NCBI GenBank assembly: GCA_947631855.1
Contig: CANRMX010000018.1
Location: forward strand, 1 to 40,435
Length of the DNA: 40,435 nt
From: an uncultured Clostridia bacterium
GTDB lineage: Bacteria > Bacillota > Clostridia > Oscillospirales > Acutalibacteraceae
Direction of reading: 5' to 3'
Shown one piece after another: positions 13,027-26,365 of this stretch (position 1 is the first letter of the stretch; the number at the start of each line of letters is the position of its first letter). The notes under the pieces are model-generated. The model had not been told where the DNA came from, ran no database searches, and worked only from the letters and a program-made list of their open reading frames with translations. Position numbers and translations under genes: made by a program.

Positions 13027-14211
13027 TCACTTTCCCAGCGCCTTCAGGCGCGCCATGGCTTCCTTCGTCTGGGCCGCGTCGCCGAAGGCCGTCAGCCGGA
13101 AATACCCTTCTCCGTTTTTGCCGAAGCCTTCCCCGGGCGTCCCCACGATCTCCGCCTTTTCCAGCAGATAATCGAAATATTCCCAGCTGCCCATGCCGTC
13201 GGGGCATTTCATCCAGATATAGGGGGAATTCTCCCCACCGGTGAACCAGACCCCCATCTTCCGGAAAGCCTCGGCCATCACCCGGGCATTCTCCTGATAA
13301 TAGGCCAGGGTCTCCCGAATCTGCTTCTGCCCTTCGGGCGTGAACACCGCCTCGGCGGCCCGCTGGGTGACGTAGCTGACGCCGTTGAATTTGCACCCCT
13401 GCCGGCGCTCCCACAGCTTGGAAACCTGCACGCCGTCCACCACCAGCTCCTTGCGGATGACGGTGTAGCCGCAGCGCATCCCGGTGAAGCCCGCCGTCTT
13501 GCTGAGGGAACAGAACTCGATGGCGCATTTCTCCGCGCCGGGGATTTCAAAAATGCTCCGGGGCAGGCCCGCGCCGGTGACGAAGCTCTCATAGGCCGCG
13601 TCATACAGCAGGATGGCCCCATGCGACAGGGCGTAGTCCACCCACTGCTGCAGCTGCGCCCGATCATACGCCGCGCCGGTGGGATTGTTGGGCGAGCACA
13701 GATAGACGATATCCGCCTGGACATCGTCGTCGGGCAGGGGCAGGAAGCCGTTTTCCTCGGTGCCGTCGGCGTAGATCAGCTTTCTGCCGGACAGGATGTT
13801 GGTATCCACATAGACCGGGTACACCGGGTCGGGCACCAGCACGGTGTTGTCCACGTCGAACAGATCCACGATGTTGCCCACGTCGCTCTTGGCGCCGTCG
13901 CCGATGAACACTTCCTCGGCGGCAAGCTCCACCCCCAGGGATTTGTAATACCCCGCTACGGCCTCCCGCAGGAAGGGATAGCCGTTGGAATCCGGCGAAT
14001 AGCCCCGGAAAGTCTCCTTCTTCGCCATTTCGTCCGTGGCCCGGTGCATGGCCTCGATCACCACCGGGGCCAGGGGCAGGGTCACGTCGCCGATGCCCAT
14101 GCGGATGATGTGGTTCTCCGGGTGGGCAGCGGTGTAGGCCGCCACCTTCTTCGCCACGGTGACGAACAGGTAGTTCTGCTCCAGCTTCTGAAAATTGCCG
14201 TTGAGTTTCAT
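13027..14211 (-). CDS. dapL: LL-diaminopimelate aminotransferase
   Basis: The 394-residue fold-type I PLP enzyme makes LL-diaminopimelate directly from tetrahydrodipicolinate and glutamate, bypassing the succinylase and acetylase routes of lysine and peptidoglycan synthesis. DapL-specific features are the N-terminal [11 protein letters not shown] segment, SPNNPTGA and the PLP lysine K238 in SLSKTAGF. The start is the ATG with GGGGAGA five nt upstream; longer in-frame starts lack support. It has its own promoter (14242-14270). Two DapF epimerase units that use its product are encoded nearby at 16.6-18.4 kb. Confidence 0.95.
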
Positions 14212-14241
14212 GCGATTCTCCCCTTTTGGTTTCTCAGTGGT

Positions 14242-14270
14242 ATTGTACGCCTTTTTCCCGCCCGGCGCAA
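14242..14270 (-). promoter_or_regulatory. Predicted promoter of dapL-araD
   Basis: Minus strand TTGCGC (14265-14270), 17-nt spacer, TACAAT (14242-14247), 31 nt before the dapL start codon. Confidence 0.6.
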
Positions 14271-14273
14271 GCC

Positions 14274-14951
14274 CTATTCCAGATCCATCAGCCGCCGGCG
14301 GGTATCTTTGTCCAGCTTTTCCAGCGCATACCGATAGGCCACCCGGGGCATTTCCCCGTGGTGCGCCTCCAGATAGCGGATCACCGTTTCCGGCTCCCGC
14401 TGGGAAAGGCATTTGAGCATCCAGCCGTACCCCTTGCGCACCAGATCATGGGGATCGGTGAGCAGCCGGTCGGCGATGCGCAGCGGCTGGATGCCCTGCA
14501 TATCTCCTTGCTGGATGGCGGGGATCAGCACCACCGCCGCGGCCCGGCGCACCCAGAAATCCCGGTGCTCCGTCCAGTCGATCACCCGCGCAAACAGCGC
14601 CTTTTGCCTGCGCAGCAGCTCCCCGAAGGCGTGGGTGCAGAAGTCGTCGCAGTCGCCCCAGCCCCGAACGTACGTTTCCAGCCAGCGGTAAAAAACATCG
14701 TAGGTGGTCTCGTCATAGAGGCTTTTCACCCGGTACGCCCAGTCGAAGGCGATGACCTCCAGCGGCCAGCTGCGCTGCTGCAAAAGCGCCTCGCACTCCT
14801 CCAAGACCGCCGGCAGGCTGCGCTCCGGGATCGTGCGGTAGAGCCGGGCCGAGAGCTTGCGGATCGCCCCGGTTTTCAGGTGCCCCTCCTTGGGCGAAAA
14901 GGCGTCGAGCGCCTCCACCTGTCGGGCCGCCTCCTGCGCAAGCGCACTCAC
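14274..14951 (-). CDS. DNA alkylation repair (AlkD/COG4912-like) protein
   Basis: This 225-residue, wholly alpha-helical protein resembles the DNA alkylation repair (HEAT-like repeat) family typified by AlkD, which excises N3- and N7-alkylated purines without base flipping. Recognisable parts are the helix with [12 protein letters not shown], the [13 protein letters not shown] stretch and the [15 protein letters not shown] helix, which match family landmarks. It would act on the chromosome in the cytoplasm. The GTG start overlaps the pyrG stop (GTGA), so it is translationally coupled as the last gene of the pyrG transcript. The functional link to CTP synthesis is unclear. Confidence 0.82.
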
Positions 14952-16561
14952 GCCTGCTGCTCCATGTACTCCACCGCCGCGCCGATAAAGCCCTTAAACA
15001 GCGGATGGGCGCGGTTGGGCCGGGACTTGAATTCCGGGTGGAACTGCCCCGCCACAAAGAAGGGATGGTCGGGCAGCTCCACCGTCTCCACGATAAACCC
15101 GTCCGGCGAAGTGCCGCTGATAGCCATGCCGTTGGCCTCCACCACATCCCGGTATTCGTTGTTGAATTCGTACCGGTGCCGATGCCGCTCCAGGATCAGG
15201 TCCCGGCCGTAGCATTCCATCATCCGGGTGTTCTCTTTGATCTTGCAGGGATAGCTGCCCAGCCGCAGCGTGCCGCCCTTGTTGATCTCCTTGTTCTGGT
15301 CGGGCATGAAGTCGATCACCTTGTTCAGGCCGTATTCGTCGAATTCCCCGGAATTGGCGTCGGCGATGCCGCACACATGGCGGCAGAATTCGATCACCGC
15401 CACCTGCATCCCCAGGCAGATGCCCAGATAGGGCACGTGGTTCTCCCGGGCGTACTGCACCGCCAGGATCATCCCCTCGATGCCCCGGGGGCCGAATCCG
15501 CCGGGCACCAGGATGCCGTGGCAGCCCGCCAGCCGGGACGCCGTGTTCTCCTCGTCCAGCGTCTCCGAATCCACCCAGTCGATCTCCACCTTGGCGCTGT
15601 GGTCGTAGCCCGCGTGGCGCAGGGCCTCCATCACCGAAAGATAGGCGTCGTGGAGTTTCACATACTTGCCCACCAGGGCGATCTTCACCGTCTTCTTCCG
15701 CCCGCGGATGCGCTCCACCATCTCCAGCCAGTCGGTCATGTCCGGCGCCGGGGTGTCCAGCTTCAATTCCCTGCACACGATGTCCGAGAAGTGGTTCTTC
15801 TCCAGCATGATGGGCGCCTCATACAGCACCGGGATGGTCAGGTTCTCGATGACGCAGTCGGGCTGCACGTTGCAGAACAGCGCGATCTTGGAGAAGATCG
15901 ACGGGTCGGTGATGGGCTCGTCGGTGCGCAGCACGATGATGTTGGGCTTGATGCCCATGGATTGCAGTTCCTTCACCGAGTGCTGGGTGGGCTTGGATTT
16001 GTGCTCGCCGCTGCTCTTGAGATAGGGCACCAGCGTCACGTGGATGAACAGGGAATTCTCCGGCCCCACCTCCTGGGACACCTGCCGGATGGCCTCCAGG
16101 AAGGGCTGGCTCTCGATATCGCCCACGGTGCCGCCGATCTCCGTGATGACCACATCCGCGTTGGAATGGCTGCCCACGTTGTAGATGAAGCTGGTGATCT
16201 CGCTGGTGACGTGGGGGATCACCTGCACCGTCTCCCCCAGGTATTCTCCCCGGCGCTCCTTGTTCAGCACGTTCCAATAGACCCGGCCGGTGGTGAGGTT
16301 GGAAAACTTGTTCAGGTTCTCGTCGATGAACCGCTCATAGTGCCCCAGGTCCAGGTCGGTCTCCAGCCCGTCCTCGGTGACGTAAACCTCCCCGTGCTGA
16401 TAGGGGCTCATGGTGCCCGGGTCCACGTTGATATAGGGGTCCAGCTTCTGGGCCGCCACCTTGAGCCCCCGGGCCTTTAAGAGCCGGCCCAGGCTGGCCG
16501 CGGTGATGCCCTTGCCCAGGCCAGACACCACGCCGCCGGTCACAAAGATATATTTTGCCAT
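14948..16561 (-). CDS. pyrG: CTP synthase
   Basis: The full-length 537-residue enzyme makes CTP from UTP, ATP and glutamine. The amidoligase domain (~1-270) opens with [17 protein letters not shown] and contains [20 protein letters not shown]. The class I glutamine amidotransferase domain (~290-537) has the nucleophile in YLGICLGMQ and the FHPEF catalytic His-Glu. It lies 49 nt after dapF and is the third glutamine amidotransferase in this block after PurF and CarA. There is no obvious promoter in the short gap, so it probably reads through from upstream. Confidence 0.97.
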
Positions 16562-16610: not shown

Positions 16611-17453
16611 TCACGCCTCCACCCAGCCCTCGAACACCCGCACGGCCTCGCCGGTCATGAGGATCCTTTCCGGCATGTAGTTGACGGTAAGCTCTCCGCC
16701 CCGCAGCCGGACAGTCACATCCTCGCCCGCGGCGCAGATACCGTTCAGCACCGCCGCCGCCACCGTGGCGCAGGTGCCCGTGCCGCAGGCCATGGTCTCG
16801 CCGCTGCCCCGCTCCCACACCCGCATTTTGAGGGTGTGCCCGTCGATCACCTGCACAAATTCCGTGTTCACCCGGTCGGGGAACAGGGGATCGTTTTCAA
16901 ATTTCGGCCCGATGGCCGGCAGGTCCAGCCCGTCGGGGTCGCCGCCGAACACCACGCAGTGGGGGTTGCCCATGCTCACGCAGGTGACGGTATATTCGCT
17001 GCCGGCCACCGCCACCCGCTGCCCCACGATCTGTTCGCCGGGCAGGGCCACGGGGATCTTCTCCGGCCGAAGCTCCGCCCGGCCCATGTCCACGGTGATC
17101 CGCTTCGCCTCCCCGTTTTCGGCGTGGACGGTGCAGGTCTTCACCCCGCTGAGGGTCTCGATGCGCAGCACGTCCTTCCGGGCATAGCCCGCGTCGTACA
17201 GGTATTTCGCCACGCAGCGGATGCCGTTGCCGCACATCTTCCCTTCGCTGCCGTCGGCGTTGAACATCCGCATCCGGCCGTCGGCCACTTCCGACGGGCA
17301 GATCAGGATCACCCCGTCGCCGCCGATGCCCTTGTGCCGGTCGGAGAGCCGGATGGCCAGTCCCTCCGGGTCTTCTACTTCCTGCCGAAAGCAGTCAAAA
17401 TAGATGTAGTCGTTGCCCGCGCCGTGCATCTTCACAAAATCCAGTTTTCCCAT
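16611..17453 (-). CDS. dapF: Diaminopimelate epimerase (stand-alone copy)
   Basis: The 280-residue enzyme interconverts LL- and meso-diaminopimelate for lysine and cell-wall synthesis. It has the canonical start FVKMHGAGNDYIYFDC and the two catalytic cysteines of the DapF two-base mechanism: C74 in MCGNGIRC and C223 in MACGTGTC. The ATG has GAGGTG six nt upstream; a longer frame to 17501 lacks a good site. It sits only 44 nt downstream of a second DapF unit fused to CarB, so two epimerase copies are encoded in tandem. This copy looks the more conventional and is the likelier housekeeping enzyme. Confidence 0.93.
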   Translation of the reverse strand: MGKLDFVKMHGAGNDYIYFDCFRQEVEDPEGLAIRLSDRHKGIGGDGVILICPSEVADGRMRMFNADGSEGKMCGNGIRCVAKYLYDAGYARKDVLRIETLSGVKTCTVHAENGEAKRITVDMGRAELRPEKIPVALPGEQIVGQRVAVAGSEYTVTCVSMGNPHCVVFGGDPDGLDLPAIGPKFENDPLFPDRVNTEFVQVIDGHTLKMRVWERGSGETMACGTGTCATVAAAVLNGICAAGEDVTVRLRGGELTVNYMPERILMTGEAVRVFEGWVEA

Positions 17454-17497
17454 GGTTCGCACCTCGCCTGTGTTTCCGCGTCTATGGTTCCATTTTA

Positions 17498-20400
17498 TCA
17501 AACTTCCACCGTGCCGTCAAACACCTTGTCGGCCCGTCCGGTCATCAGCACCCGCTCGTCGGTGTAGTTGATCCGCAGCTCGCCGCCTTTGAGGATCACC
17601 CGCACGTCCTGCCCTTTCTGGCAATAGCCGTTCACCGTGGCGGCCACCACCGCTGCGCAGGTGCCCGTGCCGCAGGCCATGGTCTCGCCGCTGCCCCGCT
17701 CCCAGATGCGGGCTTTCAAGGTGGTCTCGTCGATCACCTCCACAAAGCCCACGTTCACCCGTTCGGGGAACAGGGGGTCGTGCTCGAACTTTGGCCCCAG
17801 CCGCTCCAGGTCCAGCTTGTCCACCGAGGGGACGAACACCGTGGCGTGGGGATTGCCCATGGAGCAGCAGGTGATGCGGAACACCTCGCCGTCGATGGAG
17901 ACGGGCTTGTTCACCACCCGGTCCCCTTCCAGATTCACCGGCACCAGCCTGGGCGAAAGCTCTGCCCGGCCCATGTCCACGGTGACTTTGGACACCAGCC
18001 CGTTTTTCGTGATGACGGTACATTCCTTCACGCCGCTGGCGGTGTCGATCCTCAGCCGGTACCGGCCCTTGCCCACCGGCTCGCCTTTTGCGATGCCGTT
18101 ATCAAACAGGTACTTGGCCACGCAGCGGATGCCGTTGCCGCACATCAGCCCCTCGCTGCCGTCCAGATTGAACATCACCATCCGGGCGTCGGCCGTGTCC
18201 GAAGGGCAGATCAAGATCACCCCGTCGCCGCCCACGCCGTTGTGCCGGTCGGACAGGTAGATGGACAGGAATTCCGGCGAGGCCACTGCGTTGGCCGGGT
18301 CGAAGCAGTTGATGTAGATATAGTCGTTGGAGCAGGCGGTCATCTTGGTGAAGTGCAGCCGCTGCTTCTCGGCCTTCAAGTGATTGATGTCCACGATCTC
18401 GGTGTTTTCCGGGGTGTAGCGGCTCATCAGGGAATCCGCCAGGGCGTTGGCGGTATCCAGCGCCGTGAGGCAGGGGATCCCCAGCAGACTGGCCTTCCGG
18501 CGGATCTTCACGCTGTCCCGGGCGGGATTGCGCCCCTTGGCGGAGGTGGAGATCACATAATCCACCTGGCCGCTTTCCAGCAGGGTCAGGGTGTTGACGG
18601 AGCTTTCGTGAATTTTGTCCACCAGCTTCACCGCCAGTCCCACCTTGGCCAGCACCAGCGCCGTTCCGGCCGTGGCGTAGAGGGTGAAGCCCATCCGGGC
18701 AAATTTCTTGGCCACTTCCCCGATCTCGTGCTTGTCCTGGTCCCGCACGGTGATGAACACCCCGCCGCCTTCCCGGGTCATCTTGTGGTTGGAGGCGATC
18801 AATCCCTTATACAGGGCCTCCTCCAGATTGTTGCCGATGCCCAGCACCTCGCCGGTGGATTTCATCTCCGGCCCCAGGTGGGTGTCCACGTCCTGCAGCT
18901 TTTCAAAGGAGAACACCGGCACCTTCACCGCCACATAGGGCGAGGGCGGATACAGCCCCGTGCCGTAGCCCAGGTCGGTGAGCTTTTCGCCCAGGCTCAC
19001 CCGGGTGGCCAGGTCGCACATGGGCACCCCGGTGACCTTGCTGATATAGGGCACGGTGCGGGAGGCCCGGGGATTTACCTCGATCACGTAGATCTCGCCG
19101 CCGGTGAGGATGTATTGCAGATTGATGAGCCCGATGCCGTGGAGCTCCCGGCACAGCGTCTCAGTGGTGGAGACGATCTTGTCCGCCATGTCGTCGTCGA
19201 TATCCCCTGCCGGGTACACGGCGATGCTGTCGCCGGAGTGGATGCCCGTGCGCTCCACGTGCTCCATGATGCCCGGGATCAGGATGTTCTCCCCGTCGCA
19301 GATGGCGTCCACCTCGATCTCCATGCCGGAAAGGTACTTGTCGATGAGCACCGGGTTGTCCTGCCGATGGGTCAGGATGATGGCCATGTATTCCTCGATA
19401 TCCTCGTCGCAGTAGGCGATGATCATATTCTGTCCGCCCAGCACATAGCTGGGCCGCATCAGCACCGGATAGCCCAGCTCTCGGGCGGCGGTCAGGGCCT
19501 CGTCCGCCGTCATCACCGTGAAGCCCCGGGGCCGCTTGATCCCCGTCCGCTCCAGCAGCGCGTCGAACCGCTCCCGGTCCTCGGCCATGTCGATGGTGTC
19601 GGCGGAGGAGCCCAGGATGGGGATGCTGTTGGCCGCCAGAGTCTTGGTCAGCTTGATGGCCGTCTGGCCGCCGAAAGCCACCACCACCCCGATGGGCTTT
19701 TCGATCCGGATGATATCCAGCACGTCCTCGGGAGACAGGGGCTCGAAGTACAGCCGGTCGCCGGTGTCGAAGTCGGTGGAGACCGTCTCGGGGTTGTTGT
19801 TCACCAGCACCACCTCATACCCCAGCTGCCGCAGGGACATGACGCAGTGGACGCTGGCGTAGTCGAATTCGATGCCCTGGCCGATGCGGATGGGCCCGCT
19901 GCCCAGCACCATCACCGTGGGCTTCTGCCGGTCGCCGCCGATGAATTCCAGCGCCTCATCTTCCCCGCCGGATTCCTCCGTATCGTAGGTGGCGTAGAAA
20001 TAGGGGGTGTGGGCCGCGAATTCTCCCGCGCAGGTGTCCACCATGCGGAAGGTGGTCTTTCGGGCATAGGGGATTTTGCACCCGGAGAGCCGGGCAATGG
20101 CCGCGTCCGGATAGCCCAGTTTCTTGCCCCGGGTGTACAGCTCCTCGGTGAGCACGCCCTTACTGAGCTCCTGCTCGTAGGCCAGCAGGTTTTCCAGTTT
20201 GGACAGGAACCAGCAGTCGATCATGGTCTTGTCGTGCATCTCCTGCACGGAGACGCCCCGCTTTAAGAGCTCATACACCGCGAACAGCCGCTCGTCCGTG
20301 GCGTGCACCGCGATGTGCCAGAGAGCCTCCGCGCTCTCCGCCGCGAACTTGGGCAGATTCAGCGTATCCAGGGAAATTTCCGCGCCCCGCACCGCCTTCA

Positions 20401-21580
20401 TCAGGGCCATTTCAAAGCTGTCGGCGATGCTCATCACCTCGCCGGTGGCCTTCATCTGGGTGCCCAGGTCCCGCTTGGCGTAGACGAATTTATCAAAGGG
20501 CCACTTGGGGAACTTCACCGCCACGTAGTCCAGCGCCGGCTCAAAGGCCGCATAGGTCTTGCCGGTAACGGCGTTTTTGATCTCGTCCAGGGTGTAGCCG
20601 ATGGCGATCTTGGTGGCCACCTTGGCGATGGGGTACCCGGTGGCCTTGCTGGCCAGCGCCGAGGAGCGGCTCACCCGGGGATTGACCTCGATCACGGCGT
20701 ATTCAAAGGAGGTGGGGTGCAGCGCGAACTGGCAGTTGCAGCCGCCCTCCACGCCCAGCTCGTCGATGATCTTCAGCGCCGCCGAGCGCAGCATCTGATA
20801 TTCCTTGTCGGAGAGGGTGACGGTGGGGGCGATGACGATGGAATCCCCGGTGTGCACGCCCACAGGGTCCAGGTTCTCCATGGAGCACACGGTGATGGTG
20901 TTCCCCATGTGGTCCCGCATCACCTCGAATTCGATCTCCTTCCACCCGGCGATGCTCTTTTCCACCAGCACCTGGGTGATGGGCGACAGGGCCAGGCCGT
21001 TGGCGGCCACCTCCCGCAGGGCATTGGCATCGTCCACGATGCCGCCGCCGGTGCCGCCCAGGGTGAAGGCCGGGCGGATGATGACGGGATAGCCGATCTC
21101 CGCCGCAAAGGCTTCCGCATCCGCCACGGTGTTCACCACCTTGCTGGGGACACAGGGCTGCCCGATGCGCTCCATGGCGTCCTTGAACAGCTGCCGGTCC
21201 TCCGCCTTGTCGATGGTCTCCGGGGATGCGCCCAGCAGTCGCACGCCCATCTTGTCGAGGAAGCCCTCCTTGGCCAGCTGCATGGAGAGGGTGAGGCCCG
21301 TCTGCCCGCCGAAGCCGGAGAGGATGCTGTCGGGCCGCTCCTTCTCGATGATCCGCTTCACGGTGGTGAGGGTCAGGGGCTCGATATAGATTCTGTCCGC
21401 CATGGCCTTGTCGGTCATGATGGTGGCCGGGTTGGAATTCACCAGCACGATCTCGATCCCGTCCTCCCGCAGGGCCCGGCAGGCCTGGGTGCCGGCGTAG
21501 TCGAATTCCGCCGCCTGCCCGATGACGATGGGCCCGGAGCCGATCACCAGCACCTTTTTGATGTCCTTATTCAGCGGCAT
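17498..21580 (-). CDS. carB: Carbamoyl-phosphate synthase large subunit fused to DapF-like domain
   Basis: A single 1360-residue frame. Residues 1-1074 are a complete CarB: two ATP-grasp synthetase halves (starting MPLNKDIKKVLVIGSGPIVI and, near 555, PTVMVLGSGPIRIGQGIEFD), an oligomerisation domain and a C-terminal methylglyoxal-synthase-like allosteric domain ending near DINHLKAEKQR. From ~1075 a complete DapF homologue of 286 residues follows, with both catalytic cysteines (C1147 in MCGNGIRC, C1303 in MACGTGTC). Its first motif reads KMTACSNDY rather than KMHGAGNDY. The DapF part begins with a CTG codon and no ribosome site, so it is made only as a fusion. The ATG overlaps the carA stop by 14 nt. 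CarB makes carbamoyl phosphate for pyrimidines and arginine; whether the epimerase part is active is unknown. Confidence 0.95.
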   Translation of the reverse strand: MPLNKDIKKVLVIGSGPIVIGQAAEFDYAGTQACRALREDGIEIVLVNSNPATIMTDKAMADRIYIEPLTLTTVKRIIEKERPDSILSGFGGQTGLTLSMQLAKEGFLDKMGVRLLGASPETIDKAEDRQLFKDAMERIGQPCVPSKVVNTVADAEAFAAEIGYPVIIRPAFTLGGTGGGIVDDANALREVAANGLALSPITQVLVEKSIAGWKEIEFEVMRDHMGNTITVCSMENLDPVGVHTGDSIVIAPTVTLSDKEYQMLRSAALKIIDELGVEGGCNCQFALHPTSFEYAVIEVNPRVSRSSALASKATGYPIAKVATKIAIGYTLDEIKNAVTGKTYAAFEPALDYVAVKFPKWPFDKFVYAKRDLGTQMKATGEVMSIADSFEMALMKAVRGAEISLDTLNLPKFAAESAEALWHIAVHATDERLFAVYELLKRGVSVQEMHDKTMIDCWFLSKLENLLAYEQELSKGVLTEELYTRGKKLGYPDAAIARLSGCKIPYARKTTFRMVDTCAGEFAAHTPYFYATYDTEESGGEDEALEFIGGDRQKPTVMVLGSGPIRIGQGIEFDYASVHCVMSLRQLGYEVVLVNNNPETVSTDFDTGDRLYFEPLSPEDVLDIIRIEKPIGVVVAFGGQTAIKLTKTLAANSIPILGSSADTIDMAEDRERFDALLERTGIKRPRGFTVMTADEALTAARELGYPVLMRPSYVLGGQNMIIAYCDEDIEEYMAIILTHRQDNPVLIDKYLSGMEIEVDAICDGENILIPGIMEHVERTGIHSGDSIAVYPAGDIDDDMADKIVSTTETLCRELHGIGLINLQYILTGGEIYVIEVNPRASRTVPYISKVTGVPMCDLATRVSLGEKLTDLGYGTGLYPPSPYVAVKVPVFSFEKLQDVDTHLGPEMKSTGEVLGIGNNLEEALYKGLIASNHKMTREGGGVFITVRDQDKHEIGEVAKKFARMGFTLYATAGTALVLAKVGLAVKLVDKIHESSVNTLTLLESGQVDYVISTSAKGRNPARDSVKIRRKASLLGIPCLTALDTANALADSLMSRYTPENTEIVDINHLKAEKQRLHFTKMTACSNDYIYINCFDPANAVASPEFLSIYLSDRHNGVGGDGVILICPSDTADARMVMFNLDGSEGLMCGNGIRCVAKYLFDNGIAKGEPVGKGRYRLRIDTASGVKECTVITKNGLVSKVTVDMGRAELSPRLVPVNLEGDRVVNKPVSIDGEVFRITCCSMGNPHATVFVPSVDKLDLERLGPKFEHDPLFPERVNVGFVEVIDETTLKARIWERGSGETMACGTGTCAAVVAATVNGYCQKGQDVRVILKGGELRINYTDERVLMTGRADKVFDGTVEV

Positions 21581-22664
21581 GATCTTCCGCCCCTTTCTGC
21601 GCCATCATGGCGAAAAATTCATCAAACAGCGCCCGGGTGTCCAGCGGCCCGCCGCAGGCTTCGGGATGGAACTGGGTGGTGAACGCCGGGAAATCCAGAT
21701 ACCGCACGCCCTCGCAGGTGCCGTCGTTGACGTTCACGAAAAGCTCCCGGGCCCGTTTGGGGTCGATGCTTTCTCCCACCACCGCGTAGCCGTGGTTCTG
21801 GCTGGTGATGTACACCCGGCCCGTCTCCAGGTTTTTCACCGGCTGGTTCGCGCCCCGGTGGCCGTATTTGAGCTTTTCCGTCCTGGCCCCGTTGGCCAGG
21901 GCCAGCAGCTGGTGCCCCAGGCAGATGCCGAAGATCGGGATCCCCAGCCCGCAGATCTCCTTGAGGTTCCCGATGATCCCGGTGTTGTCCGCCGGGTCGC
22001 CGGGGCCGTTGGAGAGCATGATCCCGTCGGGCCGCAGCGCCGCGATCTCCCGGGCCGTGGTATGGCAGGGGCACACCGTCACCCGGGCGCCCCGCTCCAC
22101 CAGCTCCCGCCAGATGTTCCTTTTCAGCCCGAAGTCCAGCAGCACGATGTGCCGTCCCGCCGTTTCCGGCCCCACGGTGTACCGCTCCCTGGTGGAGACC
22201 GCCTCCACCGCGCCGGTGATCCGGTAGGCCCGCACCGCTTCCAGGTCGACTTTCTCCGGGTCGTCGGTGATGATCCCGTTCATCACGCCCTTCTCCCGGA
22301 TGGTCTTGGTCAGGGCCCGGGTGTCGATGCCGGAGAGGCCCACCACGCCCTGGGCCTTAAAAAAGGTGTCAAGATCGCCCTCCGAGCGGAAATTGGAAGG
22401 CTCCTGACACCACTGTTTCACAAGATATGCTTTGGGTCCGATCCCGCTGCTTTCAAAATCGGCGGGAATGACCCCATAGTTGCCGATGAGCGGGAAGGTC
22501 TGCGCGACGATCTGCCCGTGATAGCTGGGGTCGGTGAGTGTTTCCAGATACCCGGTCATGCCGGTGGTGAACACCACCTCGGCCACCACATCGCCCTGCG
22601 CGCCAAACCGTTCGCCCTGAAAACGCTTGCCGTTCTCCAAAACCAGATACGCTTTGCTGCCCAT
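21567..22664 (-). CDS. carA: Carbamoyl-phosphate synthase small subunit
   Basis: This 365-residue glutaminase subunit feeds ammonia to CarB. Its N-terminal CPSase domain (~1-150) opens with KAYLVLENGKRFQGERFG. The class I amidotransferase domain (~170-365) has the nucleophile C248 in FGICLGHQL and the catalytic His-Glu in QFHPEACGGP. It overlaps carB by 14 nt, so the two are coupled. A predicted promoter lies 39 nt upstream in the gap after purF. Confidence 0.96.
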   Translation of the reverse strand: MGSKAYLVLENGKRFQGERFGAQGDVVAEVVFTTGMTGYLETLTDPSYHGQIVAQTFPLIGNYGVIPADFESSGIGPKAYLVKQWCQEPSNFRSEGDLDTFFKAQGVVGLSGIDTRALTKTIREKGVMNGIITDDPEKVDLEAVRAYRITGAVEAVSTRERYTVGPETAGRHIVLLDFGLKRNIWRELVERGARVTVCPCHTTAREIAALRPDGIMLSNGPGDPADNTGIIGNLKEICGLGIPIFGICLGHQLLALANGARTEKLKYGHRGANQPVKNLETGRVYITSQNHGYAVVGESIDPKRARELFVNVNDGTCEGVRYLDFPAFTTQFHPEACGGPLDTRALFDEFFAMMAQKGAEDHAAE

Positions 22665-22756: not shown

Positions 22757-24187
22757 TTATTTTTGTGGATTTTGGCTCCCCGCCTCCATGATGTTCTTGG
22801 AGACCTGCCCCACCCGGGTCTGATAGTGTCCCGTGAAGCAGCCGGTGCAGAAATCCAGCCGGCAACCCTTGCAGGCGCCCAGCAGCCCTTCCACGCTGAT
22901 ATACCCCAGGGTGTCCGCGCCGATCTTCCGGCAGATGGCGTCCAGGGCGATGCGGTTGGCCAACAGGGTGTGCTCGTCGCCGATGTCCGTGCCGAAATAG
23001 CAGGTGTGCAGAAACGGCGGGGCGGATACCCGCATGTGCACCTCTTTTGCGCCTGCCCGGCGCATGGCGGCGATGGTCCTGGGGCTGGTGGTGCCCCGCA
23101 CGATGGAATCTTCCACCAGCACCACCCGTTTGCCCTCCACCGCGGCCCTTAACGGCGCCAGCTTCATGTTCACGGCGTTTTCCCGCTGCTCCTGGGTGGG
23201 GAAGATAAAGCTCCGCCCGATGTAGGGGTTCTTCACAAATCCCGTCCCCAGCGGGATGCCGCTCTCCATGGCGTAGCCGATGGCCGCGTCCAGGCCGCTG
23301 TCGGGCACGCCGCACACCATGTCCGCCTCCACCGGATGCTCTCTGGCCAGCGCCCGGCCCATGTTCACCCGGGCCTCGTAGACGCTCAGCCCGTCCAGCA
23401 CCGAATCGGGCCGGGCAAAGTAGATAAATTCAAAAATGCACATGCTCTGCCGGGGGGCTTTCAGGAAGATCTCGCTGTGGACCACCCGGCCGTCCTCGAT
23501 GAGCACCGCCTCGCCGGGCTGCACGTCCCGGACAAAGGAAAAGCCGCAGCTGTCCAGCGCGCAGGATTCCGAGGCCACCGCCACCCCGTGGTCGTTTTGG
23601 CCGATGCACAGCGGCCGGTACCCGCCGGGGTCCCGCACGGCCACCAGCTTGCCGCCGCTGCCCAGCACCACCAGGGAATAGGCCCCCACCAGCAGCTTGA
23701 CGGCCTCCTTCACCCCGGTGAGCAGGTCGTTGTCCGCCCGGAGCGTCTTATAGGCGATGAGGGAGGAGATCACCTCGCTGTCGCTGCTGGCGGAGAAATC
23801 CAGCCCGAAGGCCGTGAGCTTCTCTTTGATCTCCCGGGCGTTCACCACGTTGCCGTTGTGGGCGGTGGCGATCCGCCCGGTGAGGTATTCTGTGACGAAG
23901 GGCTGCACGTTCTTCAGGGTGTTGGAGCCGGTGGTGGAGTACCGGGCGTGGCCGATCCCGCAGCCGCTTCTGGGGAATTGCTCCATCACCCGTGGATTGA
24001 ACACCTCGCCCACCAGTCCCACGTCCTTCACGCAGGTGAGGGTGCTGCCATTGGCCACGGCGATGCCCGCGCCCTCCTGGCCCCGGTGCTGCATGGAAAG
24101 CAGCGCGTTGTAGCAGATCCCGGCGGCCTCGCCGCCCTCCCGCATGCTCACGCCGAAGACCGCACATTCCTCGTGTAATTTATCCAT
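22757..24187 (-). CDS. purF: Amidophosphoribosyltransferase
   Basis: The 476-residue first enzyme of purine synthesis transfers glutamine ammonia to PRPP. It belongs to the Bacillus-type, Fe-S-containing group: a seven-residue propeptide MDKLHEE precedes the nucleophile C8 (CAVFG), which is exposed by processing. The PRPP loop is VLVEDSIVRGTT, and C-terminal cysteines (CYFGTDIG, CKGC, CTGCF) should bind the [4Fe-4S] cluster. I chose the ATG with GGAGAGG six nt upstream rather than two earlier in-frame codons. It overlaps the ANTAR gene by 8 nt, tying it to the GS-like/ANTAR transcript. No other purine genes are present. Confidence 0.96.
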   Translation of the reverse strand: MDKLHEECAVFGVSMREGGEAAGICYNALLSMQHRGQEGAGIAVANGSTLTCVKDVGLVGEVFNPRVMEQFPRSGCGIGHARYSTTGSNTLKNVQPFVTEYLTGRIATAHNGNVVNAREIKEKLTAFGLDFSASSDSEVISSLIAYKTLRADNDLLTGVKEAVKLLVGAYSLVVLGSGGKLVAVRDPGGYRPLCIGQNDHGVAVASESCALDSCGFSFVRDVQPGEAVLIEDGRVVHSEIFLKAPRQSMCIFEFIYFARPDSVLDGLSVYEARVNMGRALAREHPVEADMVCGVPDSGLDAAIGYAMESGIPLGTGFVKNPYIGRSFIFPTQEQRENAVNMKLAPLRAAVEGKRVVLVEDSIVRGTTSPRTIAAMRRAGAKEVHMRVSAPPFLHTCYFGTDIGDEHTLLANRIALDAICRKIGADTLGYISVEGLLGACKGCRLDFCTGCFTGHYQTRVGQVSKNIMEAGSQNPQK

Positions 24188-24761
24188 AGTCATCCTCTCC
24201 ATAGGTCTGTATGATCTCCGCCGCCACCGCTTTCCGGCCGATCCGGCGGTCCATGGCCTCTTTCTCGATGAACCGGTGGGCCTCCGCCTCCGTCAGCCCA
24301 CGGTACTGCACCAGCAGGCATTTTGCCCGGCCCACAGCCTTGGCTTCCTCCAGCTTCTGCCGCAGCCGCTGATTCTCCGCGGCCGCCTGCTCCACCCGGC
24401 TGCCTGCGGCGTCCAAGAGCCCCAGCGCCTGCCGGAAAAGCGTGGCCGACAGGGGCTTCCCCACCGTGAGCACGCCGTCCCCGGCCACCCGGGCGCTCAC
24501 CTCGTCCAGGTGTTCTCCCTTCACCGCCAGTAGCACGCCCAGGCCCTGCCCTGCGGCAAACCGGGCCAGCTCCGCGCCGAATTCGTCGGGCAGCGGCGCG
24601 TTGACGATCACCGCGTCAAACACCTGGCTCACCAGCATCCGCCGGGCCTCGCCGCCGTTTTCCGCAAAGGCCGCCGCCCGGAAGACCGTGTCCGCCAGCA
24701 GCGCCTTGAAAACCTCCCGCCCCTTCTCCGTGGCGGTGACGATCAGGGCCGTGCGCGCCAC
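24180..24761 (-). CDS. ANTAR-domain response-regulator-like antiterminator
   Basis: This 193-residue NasT/EutV-type protein has a receiver-like domain (~1-120), a coiled-coil (~120-140) and a C-terminal ANTAR RNA-binding domain (~140-190, AKCLLVQYRGLTEAEAH). ANTAR proteins bind paired RNA hairpins and prevent intrinsic termination. The phospho-acceptor Asp of the receiver is replaced by N54 in VIVNAPLPDEFG, so control by phosphorylation is unlikely. It sits between the GS-like gene and purF. I prefer the GTG start, giving MARTALIVTATEKG with GGAGG 12 nt upstream, because it aligns with family N termini. An ATG at 24803, inside the GS-like gene, is the alternative. A candidate target hairpin lies in the leader of its own operon. 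Confidence 0.87.
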   Translation of the reverse strand: MARTALIVTATEKGREVFKALLADTVFRAAAFAENGGEARRMLVSQVFDAVIVNAPLPDEFGAELARFAAGQGLGVLLAVKGEHLDEVSARVAGDGVLTVGKPLSATLFRQALGLLDAAGSRVEQAAAENQRLRQKLEEAKAVGRAKCLLVQYRGLTEAEAHRFIEKEAMDRRIGRKAVAAEIIQTYGEDDYG

Positions 24762-24780
24762 GGTGCGGGGGATCCTCCGC

Positions 24781-25956
24781 TCACCCCTGTGTTCCGCCGG
24801 CATATGCGCGCAGGACCTCCTTCGGCAGAAACTCCTTCAAAAAGGCGCTGTCCTTCGCCAGTTCTCTTGCCTCCCGGAGGCTGCCCGGCAGGGGCTGGCG
24901 GAGCACGCCGGGGCCGTTGGGCGGCAGGGGCAGGGCCCGTTCCACGCCCTCCACGCCGGCATAGAGCAGCAGCGCAAAGGCCAGATAGGGGTTGGCCGTG
25001 CCGTCCGGCGAGGAGATCTCGATGCGCCCCTCTTTCTTCCTGCGCAGCAGCGAGGCCCGGCCCGTGTCCGCCCAAGAGACGTCACGGGGCGCGCCGAACT
25101 GTCCCAGCCGCTCGTAGGATTCCTCTCCCGGCCCGAAGAACACGGACATCTCCCGGGCGTGGGCGAATATCCCGGCCAGGAAAGCGTCCGCGCAGCTTTC
25201 CCCATCCTTGCTGGGCCGCATGGCGATGCGGAAGCCGTTGCCCGCCTGGTCCGCGATGGGCTTGGGCGCGAAGCTGGCCCACAGGCCGTTGCGCACGGCC
25301 ATCATCTTCACCACCGAGCGGAAGGTCACCACGTTGTCGGCGCAGGCCAGCGCCTGGCCCGGCTCGAAGTCGATGCGGTTCTGTCCCGGCCCGCTGATGT
25401 GGTGGGAGGACAGCGGCTCGATGCCCATGTCCTCCAGCGTCAGGCAGATATCCCTGCGCACGTCCTCGCCCCGGTCCTCCGGGGCCTCGTCCATGTAGCC
25501 CGCGCTGTCGAAGGGGATATCGGTGGGGCCGCCCTCTCCGTCGGTGCGGAACAGATAGAAATCATTCTCCGCGCCGAAGCGCACGGAGATGTGCCGCGCC
25601 CGGGCATAGTCCACCGCGTCCCGCAGAATTTTCCGGCTGTCCTGGGCAAAGGGGGCGCCGTCCTCGCCCCGGATATCGCAGTAGAACCGGGCCACCCGGC
25701 CGGTGGAGGGCCGCCAGGGCAGCACCGAAAGGGTGCCGGTATCCGGGAAGAGGAAGATCTCGCTGTCCCCGGGCCGGTAGAATCCGTCGATCCGCGAAGC
25801 GTCCACCGCGATGCCCTCGCTGAAGGCCCTGGGCAGCAGGGACGGCAATACCGAGATGATCTTCTGCCGGCCGAACACGTCGCAGAAGGCGAACTTGACG
25901 AATTTCACGTCGTGGTCCTGGATATACTCCGAGACGTTCAGGTTTTCATATTCCAT
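24781..25956 (-). CDS. Glutamine synthetase-like protein lacking conserved active-site ligands
   Basis: The 391-residue protein has the overall GlnA (type I) fold: a beta-grasp N domain (~1-100) and the catalytic barrel with recognisable landmarks (GAENDFYLF, SHHISGPGQNRIDF, NPYLAFALLLYAG). Key residues differ from B. subtilis GlnA, judged by eye. The metal-binding Glu of HHE is I187, the Glu of QHE is R194, the His of GSGMH is R243, the Arg of VEVR is S315, and the second Glu of ExE is D132. It is also ~50 residues short at the C-terminal end. Catalysis is therefore unlikely, and a sensing or regulatory role with the adjacent ANTAR protein is inferred. The ATG has GGGGAGAAG upstream. It is transcribed from a consensus promoter through an attenuator-like leader. 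Confidence 0.8.
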   Translation of the reverse strand: MEYENLNVSEYIQDHDVKFVKFAFCDVFGRQKIISVLPSLLPRAFSEGIAVDASRIDGFYRPGDSEIFLFPDTGTLSVLPWRPSTGRVARFYCDIRGEDGAPFAQDSRKILRDAVDYARARHISVRFGAENDFYLFRTDGEGGPTDIPFDSAGYMDEAPEDRGEDVRRDICLTLEDMGIEPLSSHHISGPGQNRIDFEPGQALACADNVVTFRSVVKMMAVRNGLWASFAPKPIADQAGNGFRIAMRPSKDGESCADAFLAGIFAHAREMSVFFGPGEESYERLGQFGAPRDVSWADTGRASLLRRKKEGRIEISSPDGTANPYLAFALLLYAGVEGVERALPLPPNGPGVLRQPLPGSLREARELAKDSAFLKEFLPKEVLRAYAGGTQG

Positions 25957-25975
25957 GCGGCTTCTCCCCCAAAAC

Positions 25976-26020
25976 TGAAAAAGCCTGTGCTCCCCGGCGC
26001 AAAGTTCCAGGGAACACAGA
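25976..26020 (-). promoter_or_regulatory. Intrinsic terminator (attenuator) in the GS-like leader
   Basis: On the minus strand CTGTGTTCCC (26010-26019) pairs with GGGAGCACAG (25985-25994), a 10-bp stem with one G-U pair, followed by GGC and a run of five T (25978-25982). It lies between the promoter at 26041-26069 and the start codon at 25956, so it should stop most transcripts before the gene unless it is prevented from forming. Confidence 0.72.
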
Positions 26021-26033
26021 CGTCTTTGTCCGT
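26016..26033 (-). promoter_or_regulatory. Candidate ANTAR-binding hairpin
   Basis: Minus strand ACGGAC-AAAGAC-GTCTGT forms a 6-bp stem (one G-U) closing a hexaloop with A at position 1 and G at position 4, the loop pattern known for ANTAR targets. Its 3' arm uses 26016-26021 and so shares bases 26016-26019 with the 5' arm of the terminator; the two cannot both form fully. Known targets have two such hairpins, and I find only one in this leader. Confidence 0.5.
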
Positions 26034-26040
26034 TATCTGC

Positions 26041-26069
26041 ATTATACCGCCGCCGCGCCGCTTTGTCAA
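26041..26069 (-). promoter_or_regulatory. Consensus promoter of the GS-like/ANTAR/purF transcript
   Basis: Minus strand TTGACA (26064-26069), 17-nt spacer, TATAAT (26041-26046): an exact sigma-A consensus. Transcription should begin near 26034, giving a leader of about 78 nt. Confidence 0.85.
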
Positions 26070-26203
26070 CGGATTCCGAAAGCAAAACCGCACCCAACTG
26101 CATTTCTTTTTTGAAAGCCGTGGAAAAACCTATATTTTCTTTCAAACTTGAAATCAGAATCTGTGCAGCTTGCAGAATTGCGGGATTTTGTGGCAATTTC
26201 CCG

Positions 26204-26232
26204 TTGACAAATCCCGCCGGCGGGGCTACAAT
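26204..26232 (+). promoter_or_regulatory. Promoter of glnN
   Basis: TTGACA (26204-26209), 17-nt spacer, TACAAT (26227-26232). Transcription should begin near 26239, 127 nt before the glnN start codon. It is divergent from the GS-like promoter; their -35 boxes are about 135 bp apart. Confidence 0.8.
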
Positions 26233-26247
26233 ACCCTCGTAAACAGC

Positions 26248-26284
26248 AAGGGCGCTGGGGCTTTTACCCGGCGCCCTTTTGTTT
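26248..26284 (+). promoter_or_regulatory. Terminator-like hairpin in the glnN leader
   Basis: A 12-bp stem, AAGGGCGCTGGG (26248-26259) with CCCGGCGCCCTT (26267-26278), has a 7-nt loop and is followed by TTGTTT. It starts only about nine nt after the predicted transcription start and precedes glnN, so it is an attenuator candidate or a 5'-end stabiliser. A second small hairpin (TCCCC-GCT-GGGGA, 26330-26342) lies just before the ribosome site. Confidence 0.6.
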
Positions 26285-26365
26285 GAATCGCACAAAGTCC
26301 CTCCCGCCGAATACTATGTGGAGCAGACTTTCCCCGCTGGGGATCTGAATAAAGGAGACGATGAT

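Follow-up and report, generated by a model that had tools for sequence, protein, structure and literature searches.

Fusion of a carbamoyl-phosphate synthase large subunit to a diaminopimelate epimerase module in Clostridia

The window analysed here is a 40,435-nucleotide stretch from an uncultured Clostridia bacterium of the family Acutalibacteraceae (GenBank assembly GCA_947631855.1, contig CANRMX010000018.1). Its minus strand carries a single open reading frame (ORF) of 1360 amino acids (17498-21580), which starts on ATG and encodes a full carbamoyl-phosphate synthase (CPSase) large subunit, CarB, followed in frame by diaminopimelate epimerase, DapF. An initial annotation made from the letters alone had proposed such a fusion, and the profile searches bear it out. 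The NCBIfam model for CarB (TIGR01369) scores 1426 bits against a cut-off of 1027 over residues 4-1049, and that for DapF (TIGR00652) scores 257 bits against 114.65 over residues 1076-1358, both far beyond chance. Pfam divides the chain into CPSase_L_D1, D2, D3, MGS and DAP_epimerase, and the allosteric MGS domain lies immediately N-terminal of the join, as the annotation had it. The assembled frame has no stop near 18358, and both catalytic cysteine codons of the DapF part are present, again as annotated (Table 1). The DapF part had also been called complete, which holds for its length and its cysteines but not for its N-terminal motif, which reads MTACSNDY in place of the M[HQ]GxGND[FY], or a near variant, of standalone DapFs. 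Compared with known DapF (TIGR00652, PF01678), the window module thus has the whole domain, both cysteines and the pocket residues, including Asn11, but it is fused to CarB and has TACSND where HGxGND is expected. The closest solved structures to the fused DapF are 2otn and 9mro. Compared with known CarB (TIGR01369), the chain is full length, has the MGS domain and adjoins carA upstream, but it carries a C-terminal extension of about 286 residues.

Table 1 Features of the window around the carB-dapF fusion
Feature	Position	Strand	Basis or remark
CarB part, about 1074 aa, with MGS domain	18359..21580	-	NCBIfam and Pfam; start shares 14 bases with the carA end
Fused DapF part, 286 aa plus stop	17498..18358	-	Best PDB match DapF 2otn, E 7e-68
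Altered substrate loop TACSND, Asn11 equivalent retained	18323..18340	-	Comparison with standalone DapFs
First catalytic cysteine codon (Cys73 equivalent), TGC	18140..18142	-	Sequence
Second catalytic cysteine codon (Cys217 equivalent), TGC	17672..17674	-	Sequence
Canonical standalone dapF	16611..17453	-	TIGR00652, 293 bits; 280 aa; likely ATG 17453-17451, GAGG just 5'
carA, CPSase small subunit	21567..22664	-	Pfam
pyrG, CTP synthase	14948..16561	-	Pfam
dapL, LL-diaminopimelate aminotransferase (product LL-DAP is the DapF substrate)	13027..14412	-	Profile match
PurF-like gene	22757-24202	-	Pfam domains
DNA alkylation repair-like gene, pyrG/dapL interval	14274-14951		PF08713

On the minus strand the genes run PurF-like gene, carA, carB-dapF, dapF, pyrG, DNA alkylation repair-like gene, dapL. 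The initial annotation was silent on the second DapF directly downstream of the fusion and on the changed loop; the ORF list gives this standalone DapF in a longer form, 16611-17501. Upstream of the PurF-like gene and carA, positions 24180-26295 hold genes for an ANTAR-domain protein and a glutamine-synthetase-like protein, and in genome G048 an ANTAR protein with a receiver domain lies ahead of carA (the domain was tested on the genes of the window and of G048 only), hinting at RNA-level nitrogen control of the row. A search of the window for known RNA elements gave 0 matches at gathering score. The genome assembly comprises 1.84 Mb in 59 contigs and is 81% complete. It also has a second CarB, full-length and unfused, on another contig (C32:4033-7167; L364:4027-7251), and no carA was recognised by eye among the ORFs preceding it.

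The same architecture recurs well beyond this genome. A fusion was counted in the surveys when an open frame of at least 590 residues held a match starting between query residues 1 and 3, and the CarB part was confirmed by sequence for those copies retrieved as loci. Within the genus (code g1) the join occurs in 27 of 29 genomes, some copies being interrupted by contig ends; the two genomes lacking the full join are G006, where a fragment lies at the end of a contig, and G014, which is 63% complete. Relatives with the same architecture, whose absence the annotation had named as evidence against itself, therefore exist in the genus and beyond. A standalone DapF match is found in 28 of the 29. 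The fusion is present in at least 117 of 398 genomes of the family and appears again in many families of the order. A survey of 291 genomes across the class adds at least 37 from other orders. Among the matches listed, other families of the class have a standalone DapF alone or no match. Because of this spread over genus, family, order and other orders, comparison of the sequences indicates that the architecture is old and widespread.

The fusion probably arose once. In a tree of CarB tails, 231 fused copies form one clade with support 100, apart from 20 unfused copies, so that a single change of state is needed. The unfused CarBs came from 40 chosen genomes, 32 of which gave a match, with a usable tail from 21 of 30 loci; L330 was dropped from them as a fused copy cut by a contig end. 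The window's own row was merged as a duplicate and is absent from this tree, in which its genus relatives lie within the fused clade; in another tree, built from 80 fused rows, the window CarB is placed with that of G022 inside the genus. The nearest unfused CarBs (L331-L335) stop a few residues past V/I-D-I or V/I-D-I-N, that is, at the join. From the last MGS motif to the F-x-K of DapF there are 29 residues in 174 of 230 copies, 30 in 54 and 36 in 2 (L228 and L229).

Gene order points to a possible source of the join. We searched for DapF, Ddh, DapL and CarB in a panel of 80 hand-picked genomes, of which 40 have Cys73 in the fused domain and 40 lack it (79 at least 90% complete; the window's, 81%). 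In four of them (G471, G029, G596 and G460) an extra unfused carB stands immediately ahead of dapF and dapL, and such a gene order would become the fusion if a stop codon were lost. The remark in the annotation that the two pathways are not normally joined hence needs qualifying, given that gene order links them both in the row of the window and in these unfused carB-dapF-dapL rows. The row of G178 reads ANTAR-like gene, carA, carB-dapF, pyrG, dapL, with carB-dapF and dapL identified by search and the remaining genes by position and first residues.

The DapF parts tell a less tidy story. In a FastTree phylogeny of DapF, the group holding the fused copies has support 95, with four standalones at its base, and the count of 9 changes of state is inflated by row L002, the window's own fused copy cut by the locus end and labelled standalone. 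In L202, L228/L229 and L324/L325/L327/L329 the DapF part is placed with the standalones, which would suggest several independent fusions, but the CarBs of these loci sit inside the fused clade and module replacement or long-branch error is therefore likelier. Nor is there support for the downstream DapF being the product of a recent tandem duplication: in the same phylogeny the window standalone groups with standalones (21 rows, support only 56), outside the fused-copy group.

The alignments show loss within DapF in fused copies only, mainly at Cys73 and in the loop, with the rest of the domain under selection. We compared 232 fused domains, which are distinct sequences from the retrieved, mostly best-scoring loci and hence a non-random sample; matches that fell below 220 residues or 100 bits, such as L034, were excluded. 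Position 73 is cysteine in 137, alanine in 59, glycine in 25, serine in 7 and phenylalanine in 4, leaving 95 without Cys73, and Cys217 is retained in 231 of the 232. Across 91 standalone DapFs, Cys73, Cys217, Gly8 and Asn11 are invariant and Gly10 occurs in 83. HGxGND is found in 0 of the 27 fused copies of the genus, 5 of which have glycine at position 73. The 95 copies without Cys73 keep N190, E208 and R209 in 95 and N64, N75, N157 and C217 in 94, with a mean conservation of 0.99 in the pocket versus 0.69 over all columns. The median ratio of nonsynonymous to synonymous change (dN/dS; Nei-Gojobori, with large synonymous differences, pS up to 0.68 on average) is 0.13 for the C73G group of g1 (10 pairs) and 0.13 for Cys-bearing g1 copies (28 pairs); standalone DapFs give 0.14 (6 pairs) and 0.12 (1 pair), and CarB tails 0.04 for the C73G group and 0.06 for the other. 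That the module might simply ride along, one of the options left by the annotation, fits poorly with a dN/dS of about 0.13 and a 99% conserved pocket.

On an IQ-TREE quick tree of the 80 CarB tails, 7 changes are needed to explain the Cys73 label, and at least 5 of these fall on well supported branches, with one Cys73-less clade of 29 rows (8 family codes) and 11 other Cys73-less rows scattered among the remaining 51; a FastTree of 232 rows needs 21 changes. In Corynebacterium glutamicum DapF, the matching Cys-to-Ala mutants, including C83A at the Cys73 equivalent, and alanine mutants of binding residues are nearly inactive, and the enzyme closes over its ligand (accessible text of PMC5296763). 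Because these mutants are nearly inactive and the pocket is kept, a domain without Cys73 is expected not to epimerise, though binding might persist.

The panel links the state of the module to the other routes to meso-diaminopimelate (meso-DAP). The fused CarB is the only CarB in 56 of the 80 genomes, the window's not being one of them, and in 14 the fusion is both the only CarB and the only DapF, with no Ddh; 13 of these 14 keep both catalytic cysteines, which is why we consider such sole-copy fusions probably to be working two-enzyme chains. Of the 30 genomes in which Cys73 is accompanied by an unchanged or near-canonical loop, 26 lack a further DapF and 14 of these lack Ddh as well; in 13 of the 14, G672 being the exception, there is no CarB besides the fused one. 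The 10 genomes from g1 and g135 that combine Cys73 with a changed loop (SAC or TAC) all have another DapF. Among the 40 Cys73-less genomes, another DapF is present in 31; of the remaining 9, 8 have Ddh only and G075 has neither. Comparing these 40 with the 30, loss of Cys73 is associated with another DapF (Fisher p 1.4e-7) and with having neither route in the opposite sense (p 8e-6), both values uncorrected for kinship. All 11 scattered Cys73-less rows have another DapF or Ddh, versus 26 of the 40 Cys73-bearing rows.

The position of dapL adds to this. Where a Cys73-bearing fusion is the only DapF (26 genomes), dapL lies at most 2.5 kb from it in 19 and elsewhere in 5, and 2 have no DapL match. 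In the 31 Cys73-less genomes with another DapF, it lies at most 2.2 kb from the standalone dapF in 26; of the remaining 5, 3 have no DapL match, in G739 dapL is on a different contig and in G626 it is close to the fusion. Four canonical-loop genomes have Cys73 and another DapF: in G134, G076 and G479 dapL is next to the standalone, and in G182 it is close to the fusion. Hence, dapL tends to accompany the DapF that has both cysteines.

Taken on balance, we judge it somewhat probable that the fusion started out long ago as a bifunctional enzyme. Wherever there is another route to meso-DAP, its DapF module would then have turned into a part of CPSase that no longer epimerises and probably binds a ligand. 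A carB followed by dapF (and dapL) would have lost its stop codon, giving a chain in which the CarB part makes carbamoyl phosphate and the tail turns LL-DAP into meso-DAP. With a second DapF or Ddh present, as in the window's genus and many other lineages, the loop would have been altered, Cys73 lost, or both. The changed module would have stayed under purifying selection with its DAP pocket kept, and would now bind DAP without epimerising it and act on CPSase as a regulatory or structural part. DAP binding by the Cys73-less modules is plausible, and an effect of the module on CPSase regulation, or a response to it, is possible. The window copy, with a changed loop and both cysteines, we infer to be an intermediate of reduced or altered activity; the standalone DapF is expected to do the epimerase work there. 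A precedent for a DapF role without catalysis is E. coli DapF, which continues to bind and stimulate RppH after replacement of both cysteines (accessible text of PMC4227774). As in that case, a DapF fold would affect another enzyme without epimerase activity, but DapF and RppH are separate proteins, the partner is a different one and no fusion is involved. A more far-reaching version, which we offer tentatively and think rather doubtful, is that, across much of a single bacterial class, CPSase carries a captured DapF repeatedly converted from enzyme to receptor: the Cys73-less module would close over LL- or meso-DAP and tune carbamoyl phosphate, and hence the supply of uridine triphosphate (UTP) and UDP-sugars, to the flow of peptidoglycan precursors, with the window's genus half-way along.

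Several observations weigh against the conversion of an old bifunctional enzyme. The raw association is overstated by kinship, given that 29 of the 40 Cys73-less rows are one clade, and a tree-aware pair test of Cys73 loss against another route had 5-7 pairs and gave no significance. Of the 40 Cys73-bearing genomes, 12 have only Ddh besides and 14 have another DapF; even with a canonical loop, 12 of 30 also have Ddh and 4 another DapF while retaining Cys73. A second route thus does not force the loss. G075, 99% complete, has alanine for Cys73 and a DapL but no other DapF or Ddh match (L219, L280), and an overlooked DapF beside dapL was sought in L280 and none was found. In the 95 Cys73-less copies position 11 is asparagine in 74, aspartate in 19 and serine in 2, and these 21 replacements may spoil DAP binding. 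AlphaFold2 predicts no docked interface between MGS and DapF: the model of the window's MGS-linker-DapF segment has a mean predicted local distance difference test score (pLDDT) of 87.5, below 50 in the linker, and a predicted template modelling score (pTM) of 0.67, values that do not support a rigid interface. Finally, the standalone DapFs L123, L294, L297 and L326 fall within the fused group of the DapF tree, possibly as re-separated modules, transfers or tree errors. Because a second route does not force loss and Asn11 is changed in 21 of 95 copies, our preferred explanation is slightly weakened.

The strongest rival, though an unlikely one, is that the module serves assembly, either as a DapF-type dimer unit ordering CPSase oligomers or by pairing with and recruiting the standalone DapF. 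DapF is dimeric with a conserved interface (PMC5296763, accessible text), E. coli DapF acts as a partner without catalysis (PMC4227774, accessible text) and the join is of near-constant length, but a purely structural role leaves the near-invariant DAP-binding residues of the Cys73-less copies unexplained, and 9 of the 40 Cys73-less genomes have no other DapF as partner. We give smaller chances to two further explanations. If the module were just a fused DapF, the Cys73-less copies could be useless remnants awaiting loss, since another DapF or Ddh is present in 39 of 40 such genomes and trimming a large essential protein may fix slowly; however, the pocket conservation and a dN/dS equal to that of Cys-bearing copies speak against decay, as do the breadth of the 29-row clade across family codes and the lack of any unfused CarB inside the fused clade (with only 20 unfused in the tree). 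It is about as improbable that Cys217 alone catalyses a different, one-thiol reaction in the Cys73-less modules, with DAP or a related amino acid as substrate. Proline racemase has one-thiol relatives, the fold family includes another racemase (7vdy, O-ureido-serine racemase, a structure-database match) and Cys217 persists in 94 of the 95 copies, but the binding residues are those of DapF and the varied replacements at position 73 look like loss rather than a new catalytic residue. It is hardly credible that the join is an assembly error or that translation from an internal start yields a separate DapF: an in-frame ATG does lie at 18343-18341, with a weak GAGAA-like stretch at 18370-18366, but by eye there is no good ribosome site or evident separate start, as the annotation had it, and the same join in 27 of 29 genus genomes and in many families and orders, together with its near-constant length, rejects an artefact.

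CPSase is joined to further enzymes in CAD and other fusions, and CAD combines consecutive pyrimidine steps. The DapF of the present fusion, in contrast, belongs to lysine and cell-wall synthesis. A literature search found no paper on a CarB-DapF fusion, with thin coverage of subscription papers and preprints, and the fusion is apparently both widespread and undescribed. On the cell-wall type of Neglectibacter, the words diaminopimelic, peptidoglycan and cell wall are absent from the accessible text of PMC11316587.

Two essential enzymes of normally separate pathways are fused here, and in some genomes the fusion is the only copy found of both. Because Cys73-less fusions still score above the TIGR00652 cut-off, automatic annotation will assign them an epimerase activity that is unlikely to be theirs. 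The fused copies form a natural series that starts with an apparently active enzyme, passes through forms with an altered loop and ends in a one-cysteine module, and in which it can be studied how an enzyme, once fused, may turn into a regulatory domain. If the module does bind DAP, it would be a direct protein link from pyrimidine synthesis to the synthesis of cell-wall precursors.

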